This document shows, in pieces, positions 29,875-60,870 of a stretch of 64,000 nucleotides of DNA. Every line of letters starts with the position of its first letter. Position 1 is the stretch's first letter. The position numbers and the translations under genes were made by a program. The notes beneath the pieces were generated by a model, which searched no databases, was not told where the DNA came from, and saw nothing but the letters and a program-made list of their open reading frames with translations. Source of the DNA: Thuidium tamariscinum (Eukaryota > Streptophyta > Bryopsida > Hypnales > Thuidiaceae); NCBI GenBank assembly GCA_947034885.2, contig OX344753.2, positions 4,774,001 to 4,838,000 of the forward strand, given 5' to 3'.

Positions 29875-29895
29875 CAGGGTTGTTCTGCCGGACAT
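29875..29895 (+). repeat. Left terminal inverted repeat of giant hAT
   Basis: Begins CAGGGTTGTTCTG, then three mismatches and GACAT relative to the complement of the right end. The CAGGG start is common in hAT elements. Confidence 0.9.
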
Positions 29896-29896
29896 T

Positions 29897-29920
29897 GCGA
29901 CATCGCGACATTGCGACGTC
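29897..29920 (+). promoter_or_regulatory. Subterminal GCGAC repeats in 8-bp steps
   Basis: Three consecutive 8-bp units, GCGACATC, GCGACATT and GCGACGTC, start at 29897, 29905 and 29913. hAT transposases are known to bind short subterminal repeats; GCGAC is also the core of the CpG-rich islands. The right end has scattered GCGACA/GACGTC copies (about 59055-59100). Confidence 0.5.
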
Positions 29921-30034
29921 ACGAAACGTCCAGTAGACCCTCCGCGACGTCTATAAAAGTCAAATTTACCTTTGACTTTTTAAAAATTACCACGTGGAAA
30001 ATAATGCCACCTGGATGCCCGCGTGGCAAAAATT

Positions 30035-30356
30035 AGGGCGCATGCGGGTAGGGCGACCGCGGGTAGGGCGACTGCGGATAGGGCGAACGCGGGTCGGGGC
30101 GACTGCGGCTAGGGCGACCACGGGTAGCGGTTTAGCGTGGGGGCGACCGCGCTAGGGGCGACTGCAGGATTAGGCGACCGCGGCTCACCCGAAGTCGCCC
30201 CATGTGCAGCCGCGGTCGCCCTTCAAGGACCCGTGGTCGCCCCCTTCCAATACGCGGTCGCCCTAAGCCGCAGTCGCCTCTAGCCGCAGTCGCCCTGGCG
30301 CCACCCGTGGTCGCCTCTGATTCGCACGCGCCCTGGATTTTACCCGTACTCGCGCC
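30035..30356. promoter_or_regulatory. CpG island A1: repeat array upstream of G1
   Basis: Array of a ~14-bp unit. From 30035 to about 30180 the unit reads GGGCGACCGCGGGTA on the plus strand; from about 30180 onward it is inverted (ACCCGCGGTCGCCC), so the island is head-to-head. The inverted half leads into a TATA box and G1. Unit variants are mostly CG to TG or CA changes. Confidence 0.75.
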
Positions 30357-30363
30357 TATAAAG
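30357..30363 (+). promoter_or_regulatory. TATA box of G1
   Basis: TATAAAG at the gene-proximal edge of island A1, 157 bp before the ATG at 30520. Confidence 0.6.
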
Positions 30364-30519
30364 CCGTGCTCGTACAAGGCATTGGTACCTTAATTCTCCA
30401 TCGAGGCTCTTCGTCTTGCATCCTTCATTGGCTGCATGCATTAACTTCGGGTTGAATAATTACTTCTTTCTTCATCCATCCACGTTTCCTTATTGGTGTT
30501 TTGAACACCAACTTATCTC

Positions 30520-32993
30520 ATGGCTACAGAGCAGACCCCGGAGGTGCCCCCCGTTGTTCCACGCAATACACGAATCACTTATGCTGCGAGGAAGTCTATA
30601 CTAGACAAAATCGGAAGCGCAGAGGCAATACTCATCGCAAGCGATTACACGTGCTGAACAATCCTGATCACCCCGCATTTAAAGGCTGGAGCGAGGAGGA
30701 GGAGCCTTGGTCAATTCAAATGTGCGAAGACTACATTGAATGGTGTCACATTGGGAAATTGTTTCCGGCATGGCGCCATCATCACAATCGGCACACAAAC
30801 AAGGCGAACTTGAAATATTGTGAAAATCCAGCTTTTGTTCAAAGGTGCATCGAAATTTGGCAAGTCCTCTACAACACTCCTTTTGTAGAAAGGAATGAAG
30901 TCACGCTTTCCATTGCTCGAGGAGCGTATGCTGAGGTGGTTCTAAAAAAAGAAGTGGATTGGTCCACCATCAAGGAAAGTATGTATGTTTCACCTCCAGA
31001 AATTGGATCAATACCAAGAGGAGTCTTGAAGTTTCCGGAGGGTGGACTTGGACCAATTCGAAAAGATCCTTTCGATAAGAGTGTCATCGAAGTTATCACA
31101 TCGGAATCTGAAGAAGATAGCGATTCCGATGGCACACATGCTCCAAGGCCAATACGGATTGCTCCACAAATTGCCCCTATACCAATAATTCAAGATCCAG
31201 CTGTCAGAGGAGCTTCATCATCACGAGGACGGAAACCTAGACGCCCCTCTAAGGTTCCACGCTCGCCGAATCAAATCGGACTTGGATCGACCTCAGCAAC
31301 AGTTCGCAGTCCATCATTACCACTGCAAAATGCGACCGATGTCTTCGACTTCGAACCAAATGATGAAACGCCTGTGGATGCGAGTGTTCCTGTTCTTTTA
31401 GCTCAAGGGGATTCAACCACGGCTCTCAATAAGGCTCTTGACCTCTTGAAGACCAAAGACACGACAATTGCTTCACTCCAATCTGATGTGAAGAAATTGC
31501 AATCAAATTTGGACCAGAAGAATGTTCTCATTTTAGAACAAGCCAAAGAACTTCAACGCCTTCGACAAAAACAACATGAGACGATTACTTTGTCAGATAT
31601 GGACGAAGGTTTCATTGAACATGATCCTCATCATTTGGAGAGGGTTGTGGAAGACCTCACTAGCGGTCTCATTGAGTGTACTCCTCCTGGCAAGCGTGTC
31701 AAACGTTCTTCAGTATTGCCAGCTACGATTTTGCCTACCGTCACGGAAGATGCTATCATGGGGGCAGATGGTGTTCACGAGACTCAAGATTCACTTTCAT
31801 TTCCATCACTTCCACTCCCAGTACCGGTACCATCTCCGAAGAAACTAGGCCTTCGAGAGGAAAACAAGATGCTTCATGCATGATTGAATGAGTTGGCAGC
31901 AACATACTATCACTGGAAGGTTGCGTGCATTCTCTCCGTGGACAGATCACAGCAAGTTGCAAAGGAGTTGGACAAAATTTCAAAGAACTTCGTCGCAAAT
32001 GCCCCTAAACGTGAGAATGGACTCACATCGTGGGCATTTATGGAGGACATGTTTCCTGAGAATATGCCTATGTTGAACACCCCTGGAAATGAAGGAATCA
32101 ATTGGACACAGCTTGGTTGGGACCACAAAAACCAGATGTCGTGCCACGTAGATGAGAAACAACGACAACTTTTGTGGCCAAAGCCAGCAACTTTTGTTTT
32201 GGACCATACAAAATGTCCTATATGTCAAGAATCCTTCGGCCCTGAAGGAAGATGGGCACTTGGATCATGCGTGCATGTATACCATCCTCAATGTCTAATT
32301 ACACAATGCCTCATACGGAGACGTTGTGTTATTTGTTCAGCCCCATTCTATGATCGTTTATACGCCTTGTTCAACTTGATGACATATATGCCGCCCTCTT
32401 GGGAACACACAGGTGACACAACTCCGGAGACCAGATTATGGGGACGAGACCTGATTTGGAGTTGGCGACAAGGCCAACATGATCAAGAAAAGGGCACAGA
32501 TAGTTCTCAATTGAATTGGGAAACTGACCCAGAAGAGATCGTGCAAGTTGCATCCAAGCTCATGGGAAACGGTCCACAGAATGAGGGACGAAGGGCATTT
32601 TTTTTCCAATGCCTTGGTGGATTTTTCGATAAACAATCACAAAGCTTCATGTGGGGACGTCATCCGGAATGTCACCGTTGGGATTTTGAAGGAAAAAGAG
32701 TGTGCGACCAGACTGCAAATGCCTCTAAAAAAGATCTTACTAGTATGGCATTGCTGGACTCTACATATGGGCCCTACTACACGAGTCAAACTATTGACTA
32801 TTTGTTGGAGAAACACTCTCCACAGACCATGAGGACCCTCCAAGCCTTGAAGGATTCCAACGTCTTAGAATCCATTCTAAATGCGAATGGACCAGCTTCA
32901 CGCACTCGCGCCAAGCGCAAACTTGTGGTTGGAGAATCATCCAACCACGAGCGTGGTGAATCAAGCAATGCACATGAAGACCCAAATGTTTAG
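30520..32993 (+). pseudogene. G1: unknown N-terminal domain, coiled coil and RING-H2 finger
   Basis: Cargo gene of the giant hAT. The likely start is ATG 30520 in good context (MATEQTPEV..), but the main frame (open from 30501) is a different one and carries no early ATG, so a frameshift near 30600 is implied. The main frame then shows a basic stretch (RQNRKRRGNTHRKR), the domain shared with G2 and G4 (WCHIGKLFP, RHHHNRH, NLKYC, RCIEIW, VDWSTIK; about 30690-30985), a disordered S/P-rich part and a coiled coil (about 31430-31575). A TGA at 31881-31883 interrupts it. The same frame continues to 32993 with a RING-H2 finger at 32214-32336 (C-x2-C-x14-C-x-H-x2-H-x2-C-x10-C-x2-C), a ubiquitin E3 ligase signature. 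If read as one gene it joins the shared domain to an E3 ligase; two adjacent genes is the alternative, but no separate promoter is seen. Confidence 0.75.
32214..32336 (+). other. RING-H2 finger of G1
   Basis: All eight zinc ligands are present in canonical order: CPIC, then C-V-H-V-Y-H-P-Q-C, then CVIC. Expected to recruit an E2 ubiquitin-conjugating enzyme. Confidence 0.85.
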
Positions 32994-34879: not shown

Positions 34880-36373
34880 TCAACGTGTGGTATTACAAAA
34901 ATCTTCTTCTTTGGGTTCTGGACCTATCTCTTCAAGGTCTTTACGAGTAACACCTCGAGCTGTAGTACGCACTTTCCACTTCATCCAAGCGTGCTCAAAT
35001 TTAATTTGTGAATCCAATTGTCCCACCTCTTTCACTGATTCCACAAATTTCTTCTCATGTAGCTTTACAAGCTTCCGCAATACTGATACTTCTTCTTCTG
35101 TGGTACCGTATTGAGGAGCCATAGTGAGAAAATCTAGCTCTGAGGCACATTGTAGAGTAGCAACGTAGTTGGTCTTTTCTTCCTCATCTATTTGCCGATT
35201 GAGGACTCTTACGTCATTGTGCACCCGCCAACGTTCGCGTTCAAGAATTCTCAATTTTTGTTGAAGTATGGCATACACGTCCATTGGGTGTCCACGCTTC
35301 TCTTGTTTCTTGTAATAAAGATCTCTACTTTTTTTCATAGAAGCTAGGCGCTCGTCATTTTCAGAGATGGCCCTATGTATGGCCTTCATCTCTTCCTTCA
35401 ACATAGGGATGGTGTGTGCAGTTGTGCCAGCACTAAGTTCCAATGCTCTTATTTGGCGCAATTCTAATACATGTCTTTTCACCAAATCCAAGGCCTCAAT
35501 TGCTGAATCTAATTGAGCTTGGATAATGTCCACACTCTCTTCTCCATCACCTACTCTCCCATCTTGGAGGCCTTCAACAATTTTTTGGCCTACTTCCATA
35601 TGCTCATGACCCTCCCTGACTTGTTTTGGGATGTTTGATGGAGTTCCTCGGTCCTCCACCTTTCTTTTGCCTTTCTTGGCAAGTTCCAACTCCAAGGCCT
35701 TTTTTTGGTCGCCCATGCCAACATCCTCATCGTCGCTCTGGAAATTATACCCATTGTATTCATGGGTGTGTTCATCCGAGCTAGAATTAGGCGACCATAC
35801 TACGTCTTCATCCAAAACAGCTAACTTCCCAGGCTTCACTCGTGCCAATGACTTCTTCACATCAATTGTTTCACCTTCTGCCACAATAGATGCTTCTTCC
35901 ACATGGTCTCCAACTAGAAGCTCCTTCAATGTTGACCAGTCCACTTTTTTCTTCAATATGTTTTCAGCATACACCATTTGGACCAGGAAGAAACAGAAAT
36001 TGTCGTTTCTATATGGCTTGGTCTCCCCATACAACCTCATCCATACTTCCAAGCATCTGAGTGTGAAGTCTTCATCTTTGCAATATGCAAGATTGGCCTT
36101 GTTTTGCCCCAAATGAATCTTGTGGCGCCAATGTGGAAACAACTTGTTGATGTGGCACCAATCAACATATTTGTTGACTGTTTTGTAAGTCCAAGGCTCA
36201 GGTTCAGTCCTCCAACCCAAAAAAGCCTTGATTTTTGGATGTTGAAGGAGAGGCACTCGCTTCTTGTGACATTTCCCCTTCCTTTTACGGTCCTTGTCTC
36301 GAGCTGCCCTCTTCTGTGGTGAAGTCAATGGTTTGCCTGTACTAGGCTGGGCTGCTCCAGTCTCATCCTCCAT
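34880..36373 (-). CDS. G2: paralogue of G1/G4, coiled-coil protein
   Basis: Intact 497-aa frame from ATG 36373 with no intron. Residues 20-40 are strongly basic (KRAARDKDRKRKGKCHKKR), likely a nuclear signal or nucleic-acid contact. Residues ~50-150 form the family domain: W54, WCHINKLFP (72-80), RHKIH (83-87), NLAYC (94-98), RCLEVW (106-111), YAE (135-137) and VDWST (144-148). An acidic linker follows, then coiled-coil heptads over roughly 270-470. Unlike G1, there is no RING. The conserved C and H residues could bind zinc, but I recognise no known family. The island A2 and TATA-like box lie 340 bp upstream. Confidence 0.85.
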   Translation of the reverse strand: MEDETGAAQPSTGKPLTSPQKRAARDKDRKRKGKCHKKRVPLLQHPKIKAFLGWRTEPEPWTYKTVNKYVDWCHINKLFPHWRHKIHLGQNKANLAYCKDEDFTLRCLEVWMRLYGETKPYRNDNFCFFLVQMVYAENILKKKVDWSTLKELLVGDHVEEASIVAEGETIDVKKSLARVKPGKLAVLDEDVVWSPNSSSDEHTHEYNGYNFQSDDEDVGMGDQKKALELELAKKGKRKVEDRGTPSNIPKQVREGHEHMEVGQKIVEGLQDGRVGDGEESVDIIQAQLDSAIEALDLVKRHVLELRQIRALELSAGTTAHTIPMLKEEMKAIHRAISENDERLASMKKSRDLYYKKQEKRGHPMDVYAILQQKLRILERERWRVHNDVRVLNRQIDEEEKTNYVATLQCASELDFLTMAPQYGTTEEEVSVLRKLVKLHEKKFVESVKEVGQLDSQIKFEHAWMKWKVRTTARGVTRKDLEEIGPEPKEEDFCNTTR

Positions 36374-36692
36374 AACTATTGCTACCTGAGTACTATGCTA
36401 CTCTATGGTTAACTTAACTAATTGTTCTACGACTAAAATGTTCTTTTCTAAAAACCTAAATCCCTAGAACAAGCAAACTACACATTTACAAACCTATATG
36501 CATTTACAAAATGTTTTTTTTATAAAAAAAAAAAGGCACATACTCATACATAACAGTATGCCAAGCATGTGCAGAGCTCGAGCGCAAAAATGGCAAATCC
36601 CGACGTGAAGTATGGAATCCCTTGCTCACGGGCACGCAATCAGCCACATCTAAGTGGGTGAAGGTCAATGCGCAAAGCAAGGGAGGTGGACT

Positions 36693-36814
36693 ACGGGTCG
36701 GGGCGACTGCTTAAGTACCCGCAGTCGCCTAGGGCGCGTGCGCAAGGGCGACTGCGCATTCAAGGCGACCGCGAGTCCAGGAAGGTGCGCGTTTGCGGGA
36801 TGGGCGACCGCGCC
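36693..36814. promoter_or_regulatory. CpG island A2: repeat array upstream of G2
   Basis: Short array of the island unit, oriented CGCGGTCGCC toward G2 on the minus strand. A TATA-like TACTTAAG lies at 36717-36710 on the minus strand. The leader 36620-36720 is homologous to 43008-43110 upstream of G3. Confidence 0.7.
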
Positions 36815-38221
36815 TTCGGGTTTGGGGCTTCTAGTTCTTTTGTTGTTTTAACACCTTCATTATCAAATATTATAGTCTTTCACTCTATAAGTGATATTTT
36901 TTTTTTCCTATGCAACCTTTGATGATAATGTTTGTCATTTCTAATCAAGAGTGAAATAATAAAAACTTATGAAAATGTTTACATTCCGTTTTAATGAAAG
37001 CAAATTCGAAGGAGCTCAAAATAGGCCCTGGCCATTTACTGGTTAATGATTAGTTCAGTGACTTCTACGAAGTTAGCATCCCCTAAAGTCGTGAAGTCCC
37101 AAATTTGTAAGAATTTTGTATGGTTGAAATCGAAAAATCCTTTGTGTTGTAACTTTCTATAATCTTTGAAGATAATAGTTCACCAAAAAAAAGATATCTA
37201 TTTTCAATAATTTATTTCTGAGGAACCTCTCATGTATCTAGAAATGGTTTCGCAAGTAGTTAAAAAATAGTAGTCTTCTTCTATATTTACGAAAAAAACA
37301 AATTTGATACTGTATTAAAAGGTTTTAAAACTATTCAAATTATATATGATAAGGGAAATAAATTGTAAATAGGCAAAGGTAGAAAATTATTGTACATGCC
37401 AAAATGGCAAAAAAGTGTTGATGGAATAACATAATTGACCATCCCTATGGTTTAAATGATTTCTAAACAACATAGTTCAGTACTATCTATCATTTTCTTC
37501 CTTCTTTGAAAATATTGCAAACAAAACAAAATAAAGGAATTCAATCTATAATAGTATATAGGATAAAGAAGTTAAATATACCATGAATAAATGAATTCAC
37601 ATCCATTCTTCCAAAATGTAATAAACAAATTATTGTAAAGCATGATGACAAACTCCATTTCCTCATCCAAATATCCAATATGTCAGTAAGCCAATCTAAA
37701 ATCATTAAAGAAAATAAAAAAATATAGTGCCTTTCAATATTTTCTTGGTTTCTCCCATTACAAATTTATAACTTCATTTTGACATTCAAACTTAACCAAT
37801 TAGCTATTCATAAAAGGTAACAAAACCGAATATTTGGAATTAAATTTCGTTTCCATTCAAAATTTCTAAATTGAAATCTTGTACTTTATTCAAGATCTAT
37901 AGCAAAACTATCAAACATGGAATGGCACAAGAAACTTCTCCACACGTAAAGCCATTAACTCCTTAATGACAAGGCGCCAAGGCCTATTTTGAGCTTCTTG
38001 GAATTTGTTGTAAATTGAAAAAATTGTCTACATTTTGACAAGTTCGACAACTTTCTTTTAATTAAAATTGTTCAAATTCTAATTCAAGTATTCAACATGT
38101 TAGATCTTTCAAAGAATTTTATGTTGTAGACCATTTATCGTAAGTTCAAGAAAGACTAGGGTGGCCCGTGCCGTTGCCACGGTCTAAAAGAAAAGAAAAA
38201 AATATTTTTATAAATGTATAA
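36815..38221. other. AT-rich sequence, no gene
   Basis: Nothing coding. Near 38160 there is a GC-rich phrase CCCGTGCCGTTGCCACGG that introduces the tandem repeat starting at 38222. Confidence 0.45.
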
Positions 38222-38512
38222 AAACTTCAAAATTCAATAACTTTCATTTCGTAGGTTGGAACACCGTGAATCAAAGCCCGTGCACCCCTCCTCGCCGAGG
38301 GCTTTCCGACGGTACCAAACAGGCACCCGGGGGACTCACGGTCCGGGAGATCTCAACGTAACATATAGAAACTTCAAAATTCAATAACTTTCATGCCGTA
38401 GATCAGAACACCATGAATCAAAGCCCGTGCACCCCTCCTCGCCGAGGGCTTTCCAATGGTACCAAACACGCACCCGGGGGACTCACGGTCCGGGAGATCT
38501 CAACGTAACAAA
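38222..38512 (+). repeat. Two-copy tandem repeat, 147-bp unit
   Basis: Copies start at 38222 and 38369 and differ at few positions. The second half of each unit is GC-rich (GGCACCCGGGGGACTCACGG) in an AT-rich setting. Function unknown; it does not resemble rRNA or tRNA. Confidence 0.85.
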
Positions 38513-39873
38513 CATCCAAACAAACAAACAGCCTATCTTCATAGGAGGGTTGACCGGTTTTGGTACACTTTGGCCATAGTACTCTTGATTTTCCGGGAGT
38601 ACTTTCAAAATACAAAAACAATTTTTAAAAAATATAAAAATATAGAGAATGTATATTTCTTCTAGAAGAAGATATCCGATGAAGGAAAAGTGTAGAAAAG
38701 GTTTCTAAGTAGGTGAAGTGGTGAACTAGAAAAATACAAATGGCTCATAGAAATAGGCACTTTTATTTTTCAATTTGTAAAAAATAGGGAAATTGGCCAA
38801 ATTGGATCTTAACATTTTTATAAAAACTATATATGTGTAAATTTTCAAATTTTATAAATCTTTTATTATCATTCCATAAATAGAAACATCTTTCCAGAAA
38901 ATTGGAATCATTCTAATTATTTGGTATTTTCTATCATACATTCACACTATAATTCTAGAACTCTAGGTTTAGGGTAATATTTTTCAGATTTATAATAAAT
39001 AAAATTTGAAAATAAAATTAAAGTTTTCTTTGTGTATTAAGAATGAAGACTTAAATTAGTTTTGCCCTATCGGGAATTTGTCATTGAAAATTTCGAGTAA
39101 GTACATTATGTCCCCCTTTGCCCTTCAAGGATTAAGTATTGAATATTAGTTTCTTTTAAGCTTTCTTCATAAATTCATATTTCATAATGATCGGAAATTT
39201 TTAATAGAAAATTCAAATTCTGAATACATGCACTAGTCAATCATGTCAATTCATCTCTAATTCATCTCTAATCTAAAAAATCACCTAAAAATCTTTGCAC
39301 GTAAGGATTGAGGAGCAAAGAAATGGAGGATACAATTATCAAGGACTTTTTAGTTTCACTATACGGATAAAGGCTCATCATATTTTATTTAATTACTACC
39401 AACTTGAACTCTTGAAGTGAATGAAGTCTCAAATATTTGGGTCCTTTGTTGCTTGAAGTCCCATATCTCTTAAGTCTATTTTAAATCTTTAAGGATGTAA
39501 ATTACTAGAGGAAAAAAATCCCTTATACTATAGAGTACTATGGACAAAAAAAACCTATAACATTTTGGGAATTGTAATTTTACTCAATATTGTCTATTAT
39601 TGGGAAAAAAAATTGCACACTAAAGGGCCAACAAACATGTCAATGTCATTGACTTCAAGCAATCAAGTGACTATTTAAAAATATGACAAAATATTTTTAA
39701 AAAAATTAAAAATAAAAAATGACAAAATAATGAAAATCCTTTAACACAATTTAACAAGTAATTTGAACACGTTCACTTTCAACGACACTAGTATGAGAGC
39801 TTGCAACAAAGAGCTTGTGAGCTAAGAGCCATGACTCCATGAGGCATGAGCATGAAATTTGTGAGCATATTAA
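38513..39873. other. AT-rich sequence, no gene
   Basis: No gene, no clear repeat boundary. Confidence 0.4.
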
Positions 39874-40965
39874 GGGTGAATGCACGAAACACTTGTACTA
39901 TTTGTTGCGTTTTTTTGGGTTGACCGCTTTAAGATGGCTCTAACTTTTGAATAAAAAACTAAGTGTCCAAAATAAAAAAACACCTCCTCGATATCTTGAC
40001 TCAAATTATTATTCTTATTTCTTACAAATTAAAAAAAAACATTTGATATTTAAAATTCAATTTTGTTAATTTGTCACACTTTGACATTGTGGGGTTTTTA
40101 GTACTATTTAGAACCCAGAAAACCGAATTTTGAGTTGAATATTTGAGTGGATATTCTATTAGTAGACTTGTAGCTTATCTCCAAAGGAATTATAAAAATA
40201 GTCATTTTTTGGATGTATAGAAGTCCACAAAGAGACCTTCTTTCTACTTGCTTTTTGAAACATATTAAACATTTTTTTGGTGATTTTCTTGGTCAAGCCT
40301 TATCACCAAAAAGTCTTCTCAAATGGCCAATTTTTAGATTTCATTAAATTTGTTTTTTCTATTTTTTACAAATTAAAATGTTGAAGTTGTATTTTTCTTC
40401 ACTAGGATTTTGGACATAGAACACATAGAATTCCGGTGAAGAAAATACATACTTCAATGTTCTAATTAATAAAAAATAAAAAACATTTTTGAAAATAAAA
40501 ATAAAAATTGGCCATTTGAGAAGATTTTTTGGTGATAAGGCTTGACCAAGAAAATCACCAAAAAAATGTTTAATATGTTTCAAAAAGCAAGTAGAAAGAA
40601 GGTCTCTTTGTGGACTTCTATACATCCAAAAAATGACTATTTTTATAATTCCTTTGGAGGTAAGCTATAATTCTACTAAAAAAACATTCTCTCAAAATTT
40701 CAGCTCAAAATTCTTTTTTTGGGGTTCTAAATAGTACTAAAAACCCCTAAATTGGAATATGTGACAAAAAATTGGGGGCTATTTAAAAATAGTAAAATAT
40801 TTTTTTTAAATCTTCAAAAATTCTAAATGATGTATAATAGTTATGAGTACCCATTTTTTAAAATTTGAATCATTTGGAGCTAAAAAAACAAAAGTTATGG
40901 CTAAAAAACTAGTCACCACAAAACATGATGCAACACAGCAGTACAAGTGTTTCATGCAATCACCC
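39874..40965. mobile_element. GGGTGAATGC family element with internal palindrome
   Basis: Ends GGGTGAATGCACGAAACAC and GTGTTTCATGCAATCACCC. Inside, about 40196-40345 and 40500-40635 are inverted copies of each other, so the transcript would fold into a long hairpin. At 1092 bp it is longer than the 733-bp copy at 7167, because of this inverted segment. Nested in the giant hAT. Confidence 0.75.
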
Positions 40966-43650: not shown

Positions 43651-43652
43651 GG

Positions 43653-47460: not shown

Positions 47461-48858
47461 ATGGACGCCACCCGGAGGAACCGTAAAGCCAAAGGCAAGA
47501 TGCAAAAAAGACAACGACACGTCCTTGTGGACTCTAATGTCGTGGCTCATGGAGGTTGGGAGAGGATCAAAGGCTTTTGGACCGCGACCACTTGTAGGGC
47601 ATTTGTACAATGGTGCCACATCGATAAGCTTTTCCCCTATCATCGACACAAAATCCACTTGAAGTCAAACATGGCAAATCTTCATGCTTGCACTCACGAT
47701 GGATTTGTACAAAGATGTATCGAAGTATATCGATACTTGTACAAGACACGAAGTGTGCCTCGGAATGAAATTCCCTTGTTTCTGTGTGAGATGGTGTACG
47801 CGGAAGTTATTTTTCGACGAAGGGTGGATTGGAGCACCATTAAGGGAGCAAAGCTTGTCCAAAAACCGTCAACCAAGGACATTCCTAGGGCGGGTCCCTC
47901 CCAAAACCCACGTGAAGGTTTAGGGAAAAAGATTTTCATCAAGAATGAAGTTCCGAACAATGAGTTCGTGTGGTCGGATCACGAAAGTAGTGAAGATGAG
48001 TTGATGGATGTTGGACTGCCACATGTGGGTGAGACATTGGCTAATTTGGAGCCTTTGGAGGAGGGGGAAGTGGAGGCGGGCCCCACGTTGACATTGCCTT
48101 CATTGGAAGGGATGCCAAGAATTGAAGGATCTGTTGAAGCTGCAAGTGTGGAGGCCAATGAAGATATTCCATTGAACGACTTTTATAAAGTTCAATTGAA
48201 GAGTGTGCTTGAAGAGTTGGATAGAGCAAATGAAGAGAAAAGGACTTTGGAGGAAGGGGCAGTGACTGATACTTCTGATGATGTTCCAACCCTTCAAGCC
48301 CTCATTGAATCGGGACGAATTCAGTTGTCCAAGCAACATGAGCAAATCTTGAACTTGGAAGCATTCTATCTGAACTTCTCCGTTTCAGGGGGTGAAGGTT
48401 CTAGTTCTTCAACTAACAAATTTGTAGAAGAACGATTGGCTAAACTCAAGGAAGATTGTCACATCGAAGCTGACTGCTTGGAAAATGAAAAAAGATCTCT
48501 TGAAAGTGCACAATCAAAATTACGTGACCTTCAGAAAATGAAGGACAAAGCCCCTCTTGATCGTATTGTTGATATACAAGATTCTGAAGATCATGAGAGG
48601 CAACATGAGACATTGAAGTTGGAAGCAGAGGACCTAAAGAAGAAGTTAGCCCATGCTCTCGCATTGGAAAGTGATGTGGCCGGGGAAGTGGAGAAGAAGA
48701 AGATGAATTTGCTCAATGCACTGAATTTGAAGAAAGAGTACATGAAAAATAAATGGTGGGATTTTCCTCTTCAATCCAATTTGGATAGTGCCTACAAGGA
48801 GGCGAAGAAAGACTTGGAAGCTAAGAAAAGGCTAAAGACAGATGAACAAAGCAAGTAG
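47461..48858 (+). CDS. G4: paralogue of G1/G2, coiled-coil protein
   Basis: Intact 465-aa frame from ATG 47461 (the frame is open upstream to 47383 without an ATG). The N-terminus is basic (RRNRKAKGKMQKRQR). Residues ~30-130 hold the family domain: WCHIDKLFP (51-59), RHKIH (62-66), NLHAC (73-77), RCIEVY (85-90), RNE (101-103), YAE (113-115) and VDWSTIK (122-128). After an acidic linker there are heptad-rich coiled coils, roughly 245-275 and 340-460. No RING. The 3' flank is similar to that of G1, so G1 and G4 probably arose by duplication with flanks. The role is unknown; a DNA- or transposase-associated oligomeric protein is only a guess. Confidence 0.85.
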   Translation: MDATRRNRKAKGKMQKRQRHVLVDSNVVAHGGWERIKGFWTATTCRAFVQWCHIDKLFPYHRHKIHLKSNMANLHACTHDGFVQRCIEVYRYLYKTRSVPRNEIPLFLCEMVYAEVIFRRRVDWSTIKGAKLVQKPSTKDIPRAGPSQNPREGLGKKIFIKNEVPNNEFVWSDHESSEDELMDVGLPHVGETLANLEPLEEGEVEAGPTLTLPSLEGMPRIEGSVEAASVEANEDIPLNDFYKVQLKSVLEELDRANEEKRTLEEGAVTDTSDDVPTLQALIESGRIQLSKQHEQILNLEAFYLNFSVSGGEGSSSSTNKFVEERLAKLKEDCHIEADCLENEKRSLESAQSKLRDLQKMKDKAPLDRIVDIQDSEDHERQHETLKLEAEDLKKKLAHALALESDVAGEVEKKKMNLLNALNLKKEYMKNKWWDFPLQSNLDSAYKEAKKDLEAKKRLKTDEQSK

Positions 48859-49314: not shown

Positions 49315-50484
49315 ATTAGAGGTTATGAAGGTAAAGAAAATAGAATATTATCACTTATGGATGACAGATTATAATGTTTGATCACGACTTCACGAGTGTG
49401 TTAAATTTACAAAACACATGCACAGTCTTACAATCCTCTTTTCATATGTTCAATTTAAAAAATTTGGTCATCGAAAAAATGAGATACAAACATTGGAGAT
49501 GCATACATTGGAGACGCATAACCCCAATAAGTTTTGGGCTTTGAAATAAGTGCTCTACAAATTTTCAAAATAAATTTAAAATGTGAATTTCTTAATTTGA
49601 TTTTGTTACTAAAATGCTAGCATGAGAAGATAGAAATGCAAGTATGTAAGCCTTGATTATAGATATAAGTAGGTATCCCACAACTATTGAATATTTCAAT
49701 GTGTTTATAACATATGCACCAATAATATAAGTGTGTATAGTATAATCAAACTAGAAATCTCTAATTATAAAAAGTTTCTATGATTTAAACACCTATACTA
49801 TAGGTGAATAGTCTTGGGGATTCACATTTTTAGACTCATATAGTAGCATCTATCATGATCGCTAAGAGGTATTTTGATTAAGGGTTGTTAGGGATTTCCT
49901 AGTTTTCTAATCAACAAATGCACAATAAATTCTGTAAAGTTCTTCATTTAATTCAATATTCGAAATCTATAACAAAAATTGAAATATTAGATGCAGGATA
50001 ATAATTACCATTGGAATTGGCATTTTCAATTCTATATAATTCAACTCTTAACAACTTACTATTTGAAATCATTCTATATTCCTATGTACTGACATATATT
50101 TTCCAAAAATGTTATACACTTGTAGTTTGCCTAAAAAAAATTTCAAGCATCTTATGAATTGCCTTTGAACATTGGTAATTTGGTATAGAAAAGAAACACC
50201 ATTACGACAATTATTTTAGACAAATGTGATTGTATGAAGTGCAACTTCCTAGGTTTTCATACATCACAAGGCCCTCAAAAGAATTACAATCAATTCAAAT
50301 GTTAATATCTTGGCAATTTTCATAGTAGAAAATTGGTTAACTTTCCTCCACATCTTCTCAAACTAGTGTAATATAGGATCTTACAATTATATGTGCCTAA
50401 ATTCATATTTTTTCCTAAAATCTATTACTTGAATTAAAAATAGCAATTGTCAAAACTACCTGATTCAAATCACCTAAAGGCTTA

Positions 50485-51690
50485 AAATTCATTTTTGGAG
50501 TGTGTCCATTGAATTGCATTCAAATATTTGTATTAGTTTCACTATAGTATAACTTATTTTTATTGTTCACCCCTTCTGGCTCAAATGTTTTTGGTCTAAA
50601 TGTTCATTTCTAATACAATGGTGTTTGCCATTTACTAAAAGATATATGTATAACTTCAATTTTTAATTTTTAATTTTGCAACATTGAAGTAGCATTCTGC
50701 TCAAGTGTCTATTAACTACAAATTTTTTATGCAATAGTAATATTGCATTCCTTTAATCCCTACAAGACTAAAACGGTTTTGACAATGGAGGATTTCAATC
50801 AATTCTATCCTTCCATATTTTTGGGCACATAGGTGTTATCATTTTTTAAAATTTTAACTGTACAAAAGTAAAAATTATTATATCTAGCATGTATGGAATT
50901 AATTGTAGAACATTTCAATGGTTAGATCTTTACATTATAGCAATTCTTGATGATCAACATCATGGGCCACAAACGTAGTTTTGGGAGAAACAAATTTATA
51001 AAAAGATGAATATAGATTTTTTAACCCCTTAGAAAAATTTATTTGGAGTCTAAAGATAATTTAGTATTACCATATTGAAATTTGCTTCACCCTTAATTAT
51101 TCCTAAAGATCTTTTGTTGAACATTTTTTAGATCTTAAATTATATGTTCTTGGAGTATTATATTCAATAAAACCGAAATCCTTAATTATCCCTAAACTTC
51201 CATTGTCCCTCTACTTTGGAATGTTATTTATCTAGAAATATAATTGATATTTCAATTATAACTTTAGAATGGAAGTTATATAGCAAAAAAAAAACCATTT
51301 ACCTAAACCCTTAAATCATGAGAAGCCTACACAAAGGCTTCAAATAAGGATTAAACACAAAATACTATGACATGAGATTGGATTCATTTTTATGGAAACC
51401 TCCTACTCATTTGACTTGGAGTAAAGTTCTTCTCAAATTGTACACAACATTGTTATCATTTGGTCAATGCAAGCATCTTTACAATAAATACTTGTCCTTA
51501 AGATGCATTCAACATAATCCATTATTGCAACTAAATCCACATAAATTTTGGAGGCTAAGATATCCTCTTTAGGATACTATCTAATTGCTTAGATCAATGT
51601 CATTAAGGTCCATGATAGAGCTAAAAAGGTAACTTAAATTTCTAATATTTTATTTGTAAATGTCCTTCTATTTCCACATTCTTGGATAAG
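50485..51690. other. AT-rich sequence, no gene
   Basis: Contains isolated family-like fragments but no complete element I can bound. The 66-codon frame at 51372-51572 is not supported. Confidence 0.4.
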
Positions 51691-52345
51691 TGCCATATTT
51701 TTTCAATTTTGTCTTCCCATTTTTCTTCAACTAATCTAAGTCTAATATTGAAATCTCAAAAATATTACATTCCCTTCTTTTTTTTAAAGTACTAGGGGGG
51801 GGGGGGGTATCCATTGAATTTTAATAGAAACTCTATCTCCATAATGTTTTGGTAGTAGTTCAAGTATACATTTTGGGATAAGTATCATTTTTTAAAATTC
51901 TGTCTTCCCATTTTTTTTTCAACTGATCGAAGTCTAATTTTGAGATCTCAAAAATATTACATTTCCTTTTTTTTTAAAGTACTAGGGGGGGGATCCATTG
52001 AATTTTAATAGAAACTCTATCTCCATAATGTTTTGGTAGAAGTTCAAGTTTACATTTTTGAATAAGTGTCATTTTTAAAAATTTTGTCTTCCCATTTTTT
52101 TCCCCAATAATCTAAGTCTAATATTGAGATCTCAAAAATATTACATTTCCTTTTTTTTTAAAGTACTAGGGGGGGGGGGTCCATTGAATTTTAATAGAAA
52201 CTCTATCTCCATAATGTTTTGGTAGAAGTTCAAGTATACATTTTTGAATAACTGTCATTTTTAAAAATTTTGTCTTCCCATTTTTTTTCCCACTAATCTA
52301 AGTCTAATACTGAGATCCCAAAAATATTACATTCCCTTTGTTTCA
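51691..52345 (+). repeat. Minisatellite, ~187-bp unit with long G runs
   Basis: Anchor GTCTTCCCATTTTT recurs at 51711, 51902, 52086 and 52272 (spacing 191, 184, 186). Each full unit contains GTACTAG followed by an uninterrupted G run of varying length (about 8 to 14). About 3.5 copies. Confidence 0.88.
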
Positions 52346-52794: not shown

Positions 52795-53227
52795 TAAGGC
52801 AACCGCGTGTACAGCAACCGCGCTTTCCAAAAATTGAAAACCTGCAAAGGTGCGACCGCGGGTCAGGGGCGACCTCGGGTGCCAGAACTGCCGCCCGCCA
52901 CCTCCATGCGCGGTCGCCCGTCCGGGGAGTGCGACCGCGGGTCAGGGGCGACCTCGGGTGCCAGAACTACCGCCCGACACCTCCAAGCGCGGTCGCCCGT
53001 CCGGGGAGTGCGACCGCGCTTGGGGCAATCGCGGGTCATTTTTTGCAGTTCCTCACCCTGTCCCGCGGTTGCCCTTCCACGCGCGGTCGCCCCACTACCC
53101 GCGGTCGCCCTCGTATGTGCGGTCGTCCTTGCAGGCGCCGTCGCCCCCATTACCCGCGGTCGCCCATTACCCGCGGTCGCCCTGTTCACCCAAAGTCGCC
53201 CTGTACCCGCAGTCGCCCCTGTGGCGA
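52795..53227. promoter_or_regulatory. CpG island A5: repeat array upstream of the transposase
   Basis: Largest island. It includes a perfect-looking 79-bp tandem duplication (52851-52929 and 52930-53008) and then a run of CCCGCGGTCGCC units in the orientation of the gene (53060-53222). Confidence 0.75.
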
Positions 53228-53232
53228 CAGAG

Positions 53233-53239
53233 TATAAAG
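53233..53239 (+). promoter_or_regulatory. TATA box of the transposase gene
   Basis: TATAAAG at the edge of island A5, 227 bp before the ATG at 53466. The heptamer is identical to that of G1. Confidence 0.6.
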
Positions 53240-53465
53240 CTGCAGCTGAAACACTGAGGGATTACCTTGCTTCAGTGATTAGACTCTAGCCTTGAACCTT
53301 CGAAAGAGGCTTCTTGCGGATGTTTTGGTTCATTGGAGGGCAAGAGCCTTGCTTTGAGGGGGTTTAAAAACCCTCTCACAGTAGGTAGCATTGTCATAAC
53401 TTTTTCCTCGTTACTGGATTCTTGGATCGATTTTTTGGGGGTGAAACTCATTGTGGATTCACACC

Positions 53466-56400
53466 ATGGTTGTCCCAGGTGGTGGTCAAGGTCGGCCCGA
53501 TACGCGTAGGGCTACAAAAGATTGGGACCCTTGGCTTATACCATGCGTTCCAAATGATCATTCACCCTATCCTCGGAAATGCTTGTTTTGCGGGTGGAGC
53601 AAAGTCTTTGTGCGGAAAAGGGCATTTAGTCACTTTGGATATGGTGGCTCGGCAACAGCAGAACGTTGTCCAAAAATCCCTAGAAGTGCACGTGAAAAGT
53701 TTATGACTTGCGGCGGAAACGTTCCAAAAGCCATGAGCTTTGAAGAATTGTTTGAAACACCATTTGTGGGCAATGAGGCCATTGGTGTGGCACAATCCCT
53801 CATTCAAGAGGTAGAGGGTGGTGAGGTGGGTGGTTCTTCAAATTCAACGGGTCCAACCGGCCCGACAAACCCTACCCCAGATTCAGTGGATTCTACTCCA
53901 AGTACGGTTGACAGAACAGGAAGCCGCCCTGTGGTTTCTCGTCAAAGAAGTATGGATGAAGCATTACAAATAGGCTTGAGACAAAAGTTGGATGCGACGT
54001 GGGCTTCATTTTTTTATGAAGCCAATATTGCATTCAACGTCACGCGACACCCTGCATTTATAAATGCAGTGAAGGAAACTGCAGCAGCTGGAATTTTATA
54101 TCGTCCACCAGCATTCAACGCGTTGCGTACCAGGATGATTGATGTGAAGAAAGAAGTTGTCCAAAAAATGGTCAATGACTGGACAAAGAACTCTATTGCG
54201 CAATATGGAGCAACTATTTGTTCAGATGGGTGGTCAGATACCAATAGGCGGCCGTTGATGAATGTGATGCTCGTTTGTCCAGCAGGGGATGTGTTTTTGG
54301 GATCAGAGGACAGTACGGGAGCGAAGAAGGACATTGCCTACACGACAGCTTTAATGTCGAAGTACATAGACAAGGCCGGTCCTTCAAATATTGTGCAATT
54401 GTGTACAGACAATGCTTCAGTAATGATTGGAACTATGTCATGTTTGTTACTGAAATATCCCCACATGTACAAACAAGGGTGTGTGGCTCACATCTTGGAT
54501 TTGCTTTTGGAAGATTGGGGAAAGTCTCAAACGATGAAGGATTTGGTAAGCGAGTGTAGGACAATGGTGAAGCATATCAGGAAATACCATTTCACTATGG
54601 CTTTGTTTCGGAAACATTCTCCAAACAAAATGCTTAGGCTGCCTACTTTGACACGGTTTGCCACCAATTTCCTTATGGTAGACCGCCTGCTCGATTGCAA
54701 ACAAGCTTTGCAAACCGTGGTTGCAGATGACGCTTACATGACCTTCGAGTTCAGTTTGCAGAATCGGACTAATGGAGGTACCATTAGGCGCAAAGCAATG
54801 GATGTTCGGCTAAACATTCATTCTGAAAGGTTTTGGTCAAAATGCAAGAATTTCGTGTTTATGATAGAGCCAGTACTCGTTGCTCTACGACACTTTGATG
54901 GCAAAAAACCAGCAATGCCAAAAGCTTGGTTGATAATGTTCGAGTTGAAGAAACACGTGTATGCTCTCAGGGATCCTCCATTTCTTTTAGACCCTGTGGT
55001 TGCAACGCGTTACGAGAAGAAATTTGAAGCTCGTTGGAAGTTAATGCGAACGGACCTCCACTATGCAGGAGCACTCTTGAATCCGTTTTTGGCAGGAGTA
55101 GAAGAAATTCAAAACGATGGGGCGACCAAAGCAGCTTTGAATCGAGTCATACGAAAACTAGCTCCATTATTAGGAGTTTCAGTGGTCGTGGCAATGCAAG
55201 AGCTTGTCAAATTTGAGGAGAAGACAGGGCCATTTGATCCCCGAGAAGAGGTTCTCGACATCACAGAGACCAATTTAGAACCTCATCAATGGTGGAATCA
55301 TGTAGGCGGCGATGCTCTTCCGAAGATTGCAAAGAGAATTCTAGGGTTGACTTGTTCAGCATCTTCATGTGAACGAAACTGGAGCATGTATTCATTCGTG
55401 CACAGTAAAACGCGAAATCGTTTGACCACAAAGAAGGCTCAAGATTTGGTGTACATTTATGCTAACTGCCACTTGGAACGTCAAAAGCGTGGGTACAATG
55501 CTGCTCAATTTTATGAAAGGGTCCTCGTGGATGGAGACACTGATGAAGAGAGGGACGAGCCTATGCCTTCAGGATCGGAGGACGAGGGTTATTTTGATTT
55601 TATCGAAGATAATTTAGTCCGAAGAGAAGAAGAAGATCTCTTGCGCGATCACAATGAATGGGCAGATATGGTCCCACCTCCACCAAGTCCACCGCCATAT
55701 CGATATGGAAACACATTTGCAAGTGGCAATGATGCGGAAGGTGTTGCTGAGGAAGAACTTTTTCGTTCTCCAGAGCGGAACCCTGATGATGCGTGGGTCG
55801 GAAATTGGGGCACAGTTTCACCACGAACTGCGGCAAGAACACCTTCTGACAACAACGAACAAGCAGATAATCAAATGCCTGCCTCAGATGTTCAAGAAAC
55901 ATCTCCAGTACCAACATCTCCAGTACCAACACGTATTCCTTCAAGCAGAGCAATGAATATTGGAAACATTGCACCAATCAATGCGGGAATTGAAGTAGAA
56001 GAAGAGGTGGATCACATTGAAGAGGTTGTAGAAGAAGTAACTCCTATTTCGGTAGCAATGAATTCACCGACCATACAAACAACGGAGGCAGCTGAGTATG
56101 ATTCAGATGCGCCACTGAATACCATCCTCAACCGTAGTCGGAACGTTTCCTTGACTCGAGGTGGACATACAGGGCAGACTACAGTCAGAAGGTCAGTCAC
56201 AACTCCTTCTATAAGGGGCCGTGTGTCCAGAGGGGAAGATACAAGCCAAGGTAGAGTCAGAAGATCGGCCCCTAGTTCATCGACAAGGACGCCTTTAGAT
56301 GGAGGTCCACTATCCAGCATCAATGAAGAAGTCCCCGAGTCCGCTCCACAAGCCACCCAACCAACTCCAGTGTCTGAGCCAAGAGAAATATCGTTGGAAG

Positions 56401-56732
56401 AACGACTACGCAACAGCAACAATAGAGACAGAAGTAAAAAAAGGCGCATTAGAAGAGTAGATGAAAGGACACACAAACATCCGAAGCGCGCAAATCAAAT
56501 TGTGGAACCTTGTAGGCTTGGGGCAGGGTGCTCCACGCAAGCAGTCCAGCAATCAAGCCAATCAATAGCGGTTCAAGCAGGTCCTGAATCTGTAGTTGAT
56601 GGAATTATTGATGCAACGCGTCCCACAAAACGACTAGTCCAGACTGCGATTCCTGGTGGTCAAGACATAGTTGTGCGGAATTTGACCTCGGAGGTGGAAA
56701 GAGAAATACGACCAGAACCAATAACAAGATAA
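53466..56732 (+). CDS. G5: hAT transposase (BED finger, DUF659, dimerisation domain)
   Basis: 1088 aa from ATG 53466 (ACCATGG context; the frame is open slightly upstream without ATG). It cuts and pastes the element. A BED-like zinc finger has C39, C42, H56 and C68. The DUF659/RNase-H-like core has CSDGWSD (first catalytic Asp near 254/258), CTDNAS (Asp 315) and the hAT C..H signature in GCVAHILD (339-342). The C-terminal hAT dimerisation region holds HQWW and SSCERNWSMYS, with the presumed catalytic Glu 636. About 400 further residues, acidic and S/P/E-rich with arginine patches, extend beyond the usual length (600-800 aa). TAA at 56730-56732 ends the frame, but the same frame continues for 50 acidic codons to 56885, so the original protein may have been longer. 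All core motifs are intact; this copy may be catalytically competent. Confidence 0.92.
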   Translation: MVVPGGGQGRPDTRRATKDWDPWLIPCVPNDHSPYPRKCLFCGWSKVFVRKRAFSHFGYGGSATAERCPKIPRSAREKFMTCGGNVPKAMSFEELFETPFVGNEAIGVAQSLIQEVEGGEVGGSSNSTGPTGPTNPTPDSVDSTPSTVDRTGSRPVVSRQRSMDEALQIGLRQKLDATWASFFYEANIAFNVTRHPAFINAVKETAAAGILYRPPAFNALRTRMIDVKKEVVQKMVNDWTKNSIAQYGATICSDGWSDTNRRPLMNVMLVCPAGDVFLGSEDSTGAKKDIAYTTALMSKYIDKAGPSNIVQLCTDNASVMIGTMSCLLLKYPHMYKQGCVAHILDLLLEDWGKSQTMKDLVSECRTMVKHIRKYHFTMALFRKHSPNKMLRLPTLTRFATNFLMVDRLLDCKQALQTVVADDAYMTFEFSLQNRTNGGTIRRKAMDVRLNIHSERFWSKCKNFVFMIEPVLVALRHFDGKKPAMPKAWLIMFELKKHVYALRDPPFLLDPVVATRYEKKFEARWKLMRTDLHYAGALLNPFLAGVEEIQNDGATKAALNRVIRKLAPLLGVSVVVAMQELVKFEEKTGPFDPREEVLDITETNLEPHQWWNHVGGDALPKIAKRILGLTCSASSCERNWSMYSFVHSKTRNRLTTKKAQDLVYIYANCHLERQKRGYNAAQFYERVLVDGDTDEERDEPMPSGSEDEGYFDFIEDNLVRREEEDLLRDHNEWADMVPPPPSPPPYRYGNTFASGNDAEGVAEEELFRSPERNPDDAWVGNWGTVSPRTAARTPSDNNEQADNQMPASDVQETSPVPTSPVPTRIPSSRAMNIGNIAPINAGIEVEEEVDHIEEVVEEVTPISVAMNSPTIQTTEAAEYDSDAPLNTILNRSRNVSLTRGGHTGQTTVRRSVTTPSIRGRVSRGEDTSQGRVRRSAPSSSTRTPLDGGPLSSINEEVPESAPQATQPTPVSEPREISLEERLRNSNNRDRSKKRRIRRVDERTHKHPKRANQIVEPCRLGAGCSTQAVQQSSQSIAVQAGPESVVDGIIDATRPTKRLVQTAIPGGQDIVVRNLTSEVEREIRPEPITR

Positions 56733-56885: not shown

Positions 56886-57066
56886 TCCCACTATATCTTC
56901 CAAAAATGTTTTTTTGAAAAGATTTCTAGCGGAAGTTTATAGCCTAGTAGTTTAGTACCTTACATATTGATATGTTGTAGCACCTTACTAGGCATTTTCA
57001 TCGTATTTCGACATATTAACTTTGGGGTTATTTTATTATTTTCTAGCCTTTGGTTTAGTTAGTTAA
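56886..57066. other. Transposase 3' flank
   Basis: Short AT-rich sequence before the nested element. No specific terminator motif identified. Confidence 0.4.
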
Positions 57067-57997
57067 CCTCATAGATTTTTAACTAAGTATATTTCTACCC
57101 AAATTGCTCCAAAATTGCGTTTTGTAATACAAGTGCAATGTTTTTGAAATTTTTGTTGTCACATATGAAATGGTGAGATATTCTTGTGGGATGGTTTCAG
57201 AAGATGTGGAGAAAATCTTCACCATGTACATTGCAAGATATTAACATTTGTACTAGCAAAACCCCTTTTTTTCCGGCAATTGGCCAATTGCCCTTGACAA
57301 GGTGATATTAGTATAAAAAACACTCAAAATTGATGGTTATTCTTTAAACTCATATTAGAATCAAAGTGGTATGTATGCTCTACATTCTACAAATTTGTAA
57401 TCATTTGTAATTGTTCAACATATGGGAGAAAAAACATTAAGTTAGAAACCAACAAAAAAATAGAAAATGCTTGAAAATACTAAGTTGTCAACAAATTATT
57501 TATAAAAATGACAAATGCCAATTACTTTAGTTAAAGTATTGTAAGAAACAATCTTCATCCAATGTTTCACTTTTTTTTCAAAAATATAAAAAATTGAATG
57601 GAATAAAGAATTTCAAACTTTTTTGGTAGAGTAGAGATTCTATAAGTACCCATTGACTACCCCAAACTAAAATTCCTCATAACTTTTGACTCATGTATTG
57701 AAATGGAATGATTCAAAGGTTTACACATAGATAAAAATCTAATAAAGATATTTCAAATTTTTATTTCTTAATGTCACAATTTCTAAAGAAGTTTTTTTTT
57801 GGTGCCCGGGCTACGCACAATTTTAAAGGAAACAACACGTCATGTCCTAACTTTTTGATCGTGTAGTCAAAAGGGATTATATTGTTGGTCCTTTTCCCCT
57901 AAGTTGCGGGCACATGTTGTGTCAAAATTTCAAAGAAAAGAAAATTAAATTCAATAGGTAGTAAGATCCCTAGAAATGCAATTCGGGGCTTTACGGG
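57067..57997. mobile_element. Longer piggyBac-like non-autonomous element, copy 3
   Basis: TTAA flanks at 57063-57066 and 57998-58001, left terminus CCTCATAGATTTTTAACT, right terminus GGCTTTACGGG. The body aligns by eye with 24474-25419 in the same orientation. Nested in the giant hAT. Confidence 0.65.
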
Positions 57998-58001
57998 TTA
58001 A

Positions 58002-58663
58002 TGATTGTGTCAATTCAATTCAATACACCACAAACACAAAGGTCCTTTAGAGGCACACCCTCACACCCCTACAAGAAAAAAATTCAAAATGTATAATATA
58101 TTGTTGATATTTAAAATGAAAACTACAATGAAGTGTAGACCTGTAGTAATAATCAAGGATTGTAGTTTAAAAGGTCACAATGCTATAAATAAACTTTGAA
58201 AATGGTAGTTATATTTTAAAACCATTCTATAAGGCAAGCTCGGTATACGCTTCAAACAAAATTAAAGTCTATTGGAATTGTACATTATATAGGAAAAAGA
58301 TTGTAGAGTACATTTTGAGAAGCGATAAATTGACCGGGGTTATGCTTGTAAAGCCCTTTCATCCCGTTTTTTTTAATCATAAACTTTTTAGATTAGACTT
58401 GTAAACGGAGGGTTGAATGACTTCAAATCTCTTTGGCAATTTGGACACTATAGTGATTAGACATTATAATCTTTCAATCCATAAGTGATATATGTTTTGT
58501 TCTCCTAAATGATCTCTGACATGTCTAGTTTGAATTAGAATGGTTACATTTAAAATTTTCTTTCTTAAAGCTCATCATGAAGTAATTTTTTTCTTCACTT
58601 TAGAAATTAGAACAAATTCCTAGAAACTCCCCCAAAGGCTTTGAGCATTTAGGGGTAAAAAAC
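58002..58663. other. AT-rich sequence, no gene
   Basis: Ends close to a GCATTTAGGGG fragment near 58645, a probable decayed piggyBac-like end. Confidence 0.4.
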
Positions 58664-58968
58664 ACCTGCGGTCGCCATCAAAGACAGAGGCGTGGTCGCC
58701 CTGCACCCGAGGTCGCCCCTAACCAGAAGTCGCCCTTCTCTTGTACCCGAGGTCGTCCTATACCCGAAGTCGCCCTTCCATTGCACCCGCGGTCGCAAAA
58801 GAGACGCAGTCGCGCTGGATTTTTAACCCGCGGTCGCGCCTGAGCCCGGTACTCGTGGTCGCCTCTGCACCCGCTGTCGCCTACCCGCAGTCGCCTTGAA
58901 AATCGGATGCGCGGTCGCCCTTACCAGAGACGCGGTCGCCCTACCCGTAGTCGCCCTGCCTCGTTTTC
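58664..58968. promoter_or_regulatory. CpG island A6 near the right end of the giant hAT
   Basis: About fifteen units of the CCCGCGGTCGCC type with many CG-to-CA/TG variants (CCGAGGTCG, CCGAAGTCG). No gene follows, so a promoter role is unlikely here; a subterminal binding region or a relic promoter is possible. Confidence 0.65.
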
Positions 58969-59123
58969 TACGTCAGCGTGGACAGCCTGCCACGTAGGCA
59001 AAAACTTCTTACTTCGCGGTAAAAAAATTTACCCTTGCGCGACGGGACGGGACGGGGTAGCGACAGGTTGTCTTATACGACACGCGACATCGGACGTCTA
59101 ACACGACGCCGAAACCCAAAAAT

Positions 59124-59144
59124 ATGTCTAACAGAACAACCCTG
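59124..59144 (-). repeat. Right terminal inverted repeat of giant hAT
   Basis: Complement reads CAGGGTTGTTCTG, then three mismatches, then GACAT, matching the left end at 18 of 21 positions. Confidence 0.9.
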
Positions 59145-60816: not shown

Positions 60817-60870
60817 CCGCAGAGTTTTACCATGTGAGACATGGTAACATGTCCGTAGAAGAAGCCGGCA

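Follow-up and report, generated by a model that had tools for sequence, protein, structure and literature searches.

A probable five-gene hAT transposon of 29 kb with motif arrays at its genes and ends in Thuidium tamariscinum

The DNA considered here is a window of 64,000 nucleotides (the whole stretch that was analysed) from Thuidium tamariscinum, positions 4,774,001 to 4,838,000 of the forward strand of contig OX344753.2 in NCBI GenBank assembly GCA_947034885.2, and coordinates below count from its first base. It contains a 29,270-bp element (29875–59144) that is bounded by 13-bp inverted termini and an 8-bp duplication and holds an open hAT transposase frame. Besides the transposase gene there are a protein kinase gene and three paralogous genes, here called genes 1 to 3. 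Arrays of a 15-bp unit, ACCCGCGGTCGCCCT, which we regard as the most telling feature of the element, lie before these genes and near both ends.

Borders, transposase and genes of the element

Over 13/13 bp the left terminal inverted repeat (TIR), CAGGGTTGTTCTG (29875–29887, plus strand), is identical to the reverse complement of the right one (59132–59144, minus strand), and both termini begin CAGGG. The target site duplication TTTCAAAC is exact and abuts the element on each side (29867–29874 on the left and 59145–59152 on the right, plus strand). It lies within a longer tandem repeat of the target: self-BLAST finds a direct repeat on the plus strand, 67/67 bases identical, at 29805–29871 and 59147–59213, and the flanks, when joined after removal of the element and one TTTCAAAC, form a two-copy tandem repeat of 64 bp, which places the insertion at the repeat junction. 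The 67-bp repeat was also considered as one long target duplication and ruled out, its copies lying 3 bases (left) and 2 bases (right) off the element ends. Given that TTTCAAAC lies directly against each end, whereas the longer repeat is set off from them, the simplest reading is that the 8-bp duplication is the true insertion footprint.

When the window was scanned for pairs of exact 11-bp inverted termini that are separated by more than 200 bp and flanked by exact 8-bp repeats, two emerged: this element and 7676–28423, which has a palindromic 8-mer and lies within a pair of inverted dispersed-repeat copies. Throughout the window the 13-mer terminus, at one mismatch or none, occurs at the two element ends only, which rules out the alternative that each gene has a nested hAT element of its own. 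The TIR-proximal left end (29898–29950) carries a repeat of its own, CGACRT, with four copies in the first 100 bp of the element versus one in the last 150 bp, and this is a possible candidate for a separate transposase site.

The transposase is encoded on the plus strand by a single open frame of 1095 amino acids (53445–56732, first Met at 53466), which matches PF04937 (DUF659) at 110.7 bits (cut-off 34.7) and PF05699 (Dimer_Tnp_hAT, the C-terminal dimerisation domain) at 31.1 bits (cut-off 21.4). A first-pass annotation of this DNA had described matching termini, an exact 8-bp target duplication and an internal hAT transposase, and all three hold: the termini agree exactly over the 13 bp, the duplication is present on both sides, with the qualification that it sits in a tandem repeat of the target, and both Pfam families are matched above their curated cut-offs. 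With regard to an N-terminal BED zinc finger, a CxxC pair is found at transposase residue 46. The matches in the PDB (best E 0.068) cover residues 600–671 only, and acidic motifs at residues 259 and 320 are tentative candidates for the DDE catalytic residues.

Among the remaining genes is a kinase, which the first-pass annotation had also listed: its frame occupies 41261–42442 on the minus strand (Pkinase, 45.9 bits) and contains a glycine-rich loop, Lys, HND...N (HxD...N), DFG and APE motifs, presumably with their usual meaning. In phase upstream of it lies a 163-residue frame (42443–42934, minus strand), with one TAG between the two. The paralogues share a domain of 120 alignment columns, 37 of which are invariant. 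Gene 2 (34880–36397, minus strand) and gene 3 (47383–48858, plus strand) are open frames of 505 and 491 residues with a first Met at residues 9 and 27, respectively. Gene 1 is one plus-strand frame with a TGA inside it: the 5' half (30456–31883) holds the shared domain and a long tail and ends at the TGA, and the 3' half (31884–32993) holds a RING finger (zf-RING_2, E 4e-5, 24.2 bits, below the cut-off of 27.3). The ATG at 30520 is in a different frame and meets a stop after 45 codons. The RING finger had earlier been listed as a gene of its own; the finger itself stands, but it follows the first paralogue in frame after a stop, and the earlier count of five genes is correct if the RING frame is taken as the 3' half of that paralogue.

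In-frame stops are thus present in two of the five genes of this copy, gene 1 (TGA) and the kinase gene (TAG), which makes its present autonomy doubtful unless introns remove them; the stops, and the missing start Met of gene 1, could be explained by introns or by decay. Within the paralogue domain the synonymous difference pS is 0.77–0.84, so that synonymous sites are saturated, and the nonsynonymous difference pN is 0.39–0.41. That 37 of 120 columns are invariant while synonymous sites are saturated indicates old duplicates under purifying selection. Over their whole length the paralogue frames gave weak, sub-cut-off Pfam matches (best E 0.026), most of which concern coiled-coil-like stretches that lie beyond the domain. 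Pattern searches of IMG/VR, a collection not of plants in which absence says little, returned six matches for the transposase and 53 for the paralogue domain, none confirmed, and 0 for the kinase and the RING half; bacterial and archaeal genome contigs, also non-plant collections whose silence carries little information, returned 31 for the paralogue domain and no relatives.

Arrays of the 15-bp unit and putative core promoters

The motif, which the first-pass annotation had missed, emerged from a list of words over-represented in the element relative to the rest of the same window. The word CGNRGTCGCC occurs 52 times inside the element and 0 times outside it in the window, and in 50 dinucleotide shuffles of the element it was absent from 48 and present once in two. 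The full unit, ACCCGCGGTCGCCCT, is 15 bp long and is repeated in tandem with a spacing of mostly 15–18 bp. At three mismatches or fewer there are 67 units inside the element and 0 in the 34.7 kb outside, and the counts inside and outside become 81 and 4 at four mismatches or fewer, 98 and 19 at five, and 183 and 138 at six, so that the closer matches alone discriminate. Of the 81 units, 74 belong to the right-end array or precede one of five TATA-like boxes by no more than 450 bp, while the other seven comprise two just downstream of TATA-like boxes and five in a cluster at 43651–43844.

At the left end an outward-facing array (30035–30185, minus strand, nine of nine units on that strand, its inner limit set at the strand switch) adjoins the array upstream of gene 1 (30187–30317, plus strand, seven sense units); seven of the 16 units upstream of gene 1 are therefore sense, and the remaining nine are the left-end array. 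In its mirror image at the right end (58664–58957, plus strand) all 15 units are on that strand. The distance from terminus to outward array is about 160 bp on the left and 187 bp on the right. The array and core of gene 2 (36684–36815, minus strand; three of four upstream units sense) and those of the kinase gene (43094–43298, minus strand; nine of ten) precede their genes on the minus strand. On the plus strand there are arrays before gene 3 (46987–47229; ten sense units among the 11 found up to 450 bp from the TATA-like box) and before the transposase gene (52796–53219; 11 of 18 sense, a mixed orientation). The additional cluster at 43651–43844 (plus strand; four units plus, one minus), just left of a repeat at 43916–44887, has no gene assigned to it, and may be what remains of the promoter of a sixth gene, since lost.

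The boxes, all of them putative, are CGCCTATAAAGCC for gene 1 (30353–30365), CGGGTTTATAAGTGG for gene 3 (47260–47274) and CAGAGTATAAAGCTG for the transposase gene (53228–53242), on the plus strand, and these three contain TATAAAG or TTTATAAG. Gene 2 (36707–36720) and the kinase gene (43094–43107) have the core GGGTACTTAAGCAG on the minus strand, and share array, core and leader (72 per cent identity over about 190 bp), whereas no match was obtained between their coding frames; such sharing is what one would expect if a promoter module had been copied. The centres of the arrays, picked by eye, are 206–416 bp before the gene starts, and among 200,000 random placements of five points there were 0 with one point within 500 bp upstream of each gene, a figure that is illustrative only. 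Because arrays precede all five genes and are mirrored at both ends, the kinase gene and the three paralogues have the appearance of genes that belong to the element, forming, to judge from the sequence, one cis-regulatory system. The first-pass annotation had treated the extra genes as cargo, a label that is probably wrong given that they carry the element's own promoter arrays.

The CpG dinucleotides of the unit are unequally retained. In a set of 98 units (five mismatches or fewer, all positions weighted equally; six scattered and the other 92 in seven clusters) the CpG at positions 10–11 is intact in 89, that at positions 4–5 in 78 and that at positions 6–7 in 47, and 30 of the 51 losses at positions 6–7 are TG or CA. 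Retention at 10–11 versus 6–7 gives a Fisher p of 5e-11, which overstates the case because units within an array are not independent; by cluster, 10–11 is kept at least as often as 6–7 in seven of seven. Deamination that acted uniformly would be expected to erode these CpGs alike, so that TCGCC appears to be a constrained core of the unit. The observed/expected ratio of CpG is 1.11–1.29 in six arrays. Outside the element it is 0.25 in the flank at 20.5–29.8 kb, 0.39 in the flank at 4–12 kb and 0.63 in a LINE-type retrotransposon, and inside it is 0.18–0.29 in three repeat-rich stretches, 0.48–0.69 in three others and 0.44–0.75 in the genes. Such ratios would be in line with arrays that are spared methylation.

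That this is a single giant hAT element is well supported, judged from this one copy, because the termini, the 8-bp duplication, a transposase above the Pfam cut-offs and a motif common to the ends and the five genes coincide. All of its genes would then transpose as one unit, as far as a single copy can indicate.

Element length and neighbouring sequence

By BLAST, 3,299 bp of the element resembles window DNA outside it, and nested repeats therefore add to its length. Dispersed-repeat sequence, probably nested, lies at 39873–40966, where it is similar to DNA outside the element, and at 57063–57965, where it is 75 per cent identical to 24470–25369 outside; neither is assigned a strand. An inverted pair of repeats of about 1 kb (43916–44887 and 49664–50640, 77 per cent identical), flanking gene 3, is probably nested as well. 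By our own rough estimate the element proper is about 25 kb.

Other repeats inside the element are tandem, with units of 147 bp (two copies, 38217–38510) and 186 bp (3.6 copies, 51676–52343). A dispersed AT-rich family occurs both outside and inside it (7168–7892, 26154–26880, 28202–28931 and 40028–40966), with some copies mutually inverted. Farther out, the LINE-type retrotransposon (12275–19029) has DUF4283, endonuclease, reverse transcriptase and zf-RVT matches across several frames. Two minus-strand expansin genes (DPBB_1 and Expansin_C; 1608–2255 and 60871–61560), about 59 kb apart, bracket the repeat-rich stretch, and a local duplication (60668–60815 versus 60868–61008, 85 per cent) lies beside and within the second of them. 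DUF4283 and zf-RVT in the LINE, like the expansins, are indicative of land-plant DNA.

Known systems, a proposed programme and its rivals

By the features tested the element is a hAT, and its anatomy resembles that of the VANC and TNPA systems while making it a member of neither. VANDALs are Mutator-type elements, whereas the transposase here matches hAT families and not Mutator-type ones. In the parts of the published accounts available to us, to which all statements on earlier systems below are limited, VANDAL21 of Arabidopsis has a dense, same-orientation motif in noncoding tandem repeats that is bound by VANC21 (PMC5735166). Dense motif arrays in noncoding DNA and genes beside the transposase are common to both (PMC5735166); the arrays found in the window are dense in the manner of VANDAL/VANC, with an orientation that is uniform at the ends and mixed at the transposase gene (11 of 18). 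The VANC domains DUF1985 and DUF287 were not found in the paralogue frames (Pfam, E up to 1) or in their domain (E up to 10). Binding by VANC21 and methylation loss have been shown for VANDAL21 (PMC5735166), whereas for the element described here they are a prediction.

Ac is 4.6 kb long, produces a single transcript and has termini of 11 bp, duplications of 8 bp and hexamers in its subterminal regions; within the hAT superfamily, gene capture is described as rare (PMC3260210). The present element shares with Ac/Ds and plant hATs the 8-bp duplication, a similar terminus length, repeated subterminal motifs and a hAT transposase, but differs from Ac in its 29.3 kb, its five genes and the motif repeated before each gene (PMC3260210). 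Its length is about six times that of the 4.6-kb Ac (PMC3260210); the earlier estimate was about five to ten times the length of usual hAT transposons. Spm/En, with its TNPA, and the 20.5-kb soybean CACTA element Tgmt* are likewise large plant DNA transposons with subterminal arrays, and encode a DNA-binding protein beside the transposase, for which there is a candidate only in our element (PMC2613891). CACTA elements, however, have CACTA termini and a three-base duplication rather than CAGGG termini and an 8-bp one, and their arrays are at the ends; the available text mentions no kinase or RING gene (PMC2613891).

Among oversized elements, the fungal ToxhAT (14.3 kb) is also of hAT type and carries several genes between terminal inverted repeats, but its termini are 74 bp, no target duplication was found for it, and it is a composite of at least two transposons; the part of the account at hand describes no gene-wide promoter motif (PMC6737239). 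Starships are similarly giant eukaryotic transposons with many genes, but are fungal and classified by a tyrosine recombinase (PMC12134995), a match to which was not found in seven frames of the element (Pfam, E up to 1). In the main text available from a review of giant eukaryotic transposons there is no word beginning 'hAT' (PMC6431247), and the top-ranked open-licence literature showed no plant hAT that combines this size with a gene set of this kind.

There is reason to think that this is a giant hAT transposon with its own five-gene programme under a common cis code, bound by a protein that it encodes, and we consider this probable. The transposase would move the element by way of the 13-bp termini, making 8-bp target duplications, and the programme would consist of the transposase, the protein kinase and three anciently duplicated paralogues from an undescribed family, one with a RING finger following in frame. 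The cis code would be the ACCCGCGGTCGCCCT arrays just upstream of the TATA-like box of all five genes, mirrored at both ends. Given that TNPA of Spm and VANC of VANDAL are separate element-encoded binders, the paralogue family is the first candidate for the protein that would bind the arrays. Such binding may turn on all element genes together or keep them unsilenced, and at the mirror-image end arrays it may mark or bridge the ends of the 29-kb element for transposition, which would combine the roles of TNPA and VANC on a hAT backbone. Any effect of the kinase and RING parts on the silencing machinery of the host is speculation. Array binding, the identity of the binder and the anti-silencing role are each suggested by analogy with these systems. 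A bolder form of the proposal, which we consider less likely than not, is an independently evolved hAT regulon in which DNA-binding paralogues would read one 15-bp code at each promoter and at the two ends, escape silencing as VANC does and license transposition of the 29-kb unit, helped by a kinase and a RING-type ligase acting on the host silencing or repair machinery.

Several points weigh against the five-gene programme as proposed. Its evidence comes from one copy, which may be partly decayed: gene 1 has its in-frame TGA and no in-frame Met before the domain (the first Met is inside it), and a TAG in frame precedes the kinase frame. The motif was drawn from enrichment in the window in which it was then counted, so that its statistics describe the arrays and are no independent test of them. 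The core of gene 2 and the kinase gene, TACTTAAG, has no TATA consensus, and no zf-BED match was found in the transposase (Pfam, E up to 1). Binding of the arrays is predicted, with candidate binders only. For the paralogue domain, Pfam (E up to 10) gave no match for two of the three members and a chance-level match to CDGP (E 0.15) for the third, a PDB sequence search gave one unrelated match (E 1.8), AlphaFold2 models in two versions, from three sequences each, were of low confidence (mean pLDDT of 59.6 and 53.5), and Foldseek with the first of them gave a best E of 2.8, which is not significant and is given no weight. With regard to CpG, the contrast within the unit is nearly absent from the transposase array (16 versus 15 of 20), and observed/expected ratios are moderate elsewhere too (0.84–0.87 in the expansin genes, 0.57 in the right flank). 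The CpG values of the arrays could also arise from recent amplification or from the composition of the motif itself; given that tandem arrays evolve in concert, a uniform motif and high CpG could reflect such amplification.

The transposase itself is the main rival to the paralogues as the binder of the arrays, by analogy with Ac and Herves, and the arrays would in that case be ordinary hAT subterminal transposase sites copied into promoters for autoregulation, with the paralogues doing something else. hAT transposases do bind short repeated subterminal motifs, as reported for Herves, with Ac, Tol2 and Tag1 cited there (PMC3143072), and for the AAACGG hexamers of Ac (PMC3260210), and mirror-image arrays at both ends are consistent with such sites. 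We nevertheless regard this account as rather unlikely: the outward arrays begin about 160 and 187 bp inside the left and right termini, the TIR-proximal left end has the different repeat CGACRT, and three retained paralogues would be left without a role. It is improbable that a hAT has captured host passenger genes and that the kinase and paralogues play no part in its life cycle. Ds elements occasionally capture gene fragments, although this is rare in the superfamily (PMC3260210), and two of the five genes contain stops, but all five have a common array that is absent from the window outside the element, and the paralogue domain bears the mark of purifying selection since an old duplication.

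A further possibility is that slippage and gene conversion have spread the arrays, which would then be GC-rich minisatellites with no part in regulation. Being tandem, with periods of 15–18 bp and some of 31–40 and 79 bp, they could homogenise on their own; this explanation is distinctly improbable in our estimation, as it accounts neither for their position before five genes and their orientation at the ends nor for the unequal retention of CpG within the unit. Finally, the two ends might belong to separate short hAT elements, brought around unrelated DNA by chance pairing or rearrangement. A single copy is seen and the flanks are a tandem repeat, so that part of their match need not come from insertion, yet the termini are exact with the 8-mers directly at both ends, one motif recurs in the mirror-image end arrays and in the interior, and the window holds no further copy of the 13-mer at one mismatch or fewer, all of which leaves this explanation highly improbable.

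The probable reading of a giant hAT with its own five-gene programme bears on what the superfamily can do. Ac, the best-known plant hAT, has one gene and motifs at its ends. If five genes are indeed under one element-specific code here, a familiar superfamily would be able to build a multi-gene, virus-like programme, and the paralogue domain would be a candidate for a new class of sequence-specific DNA-binding protein. Likewise, the element would provide a second independent case, beside the VANDALs, in which to study silencing evasion by sequence-specific proteins.

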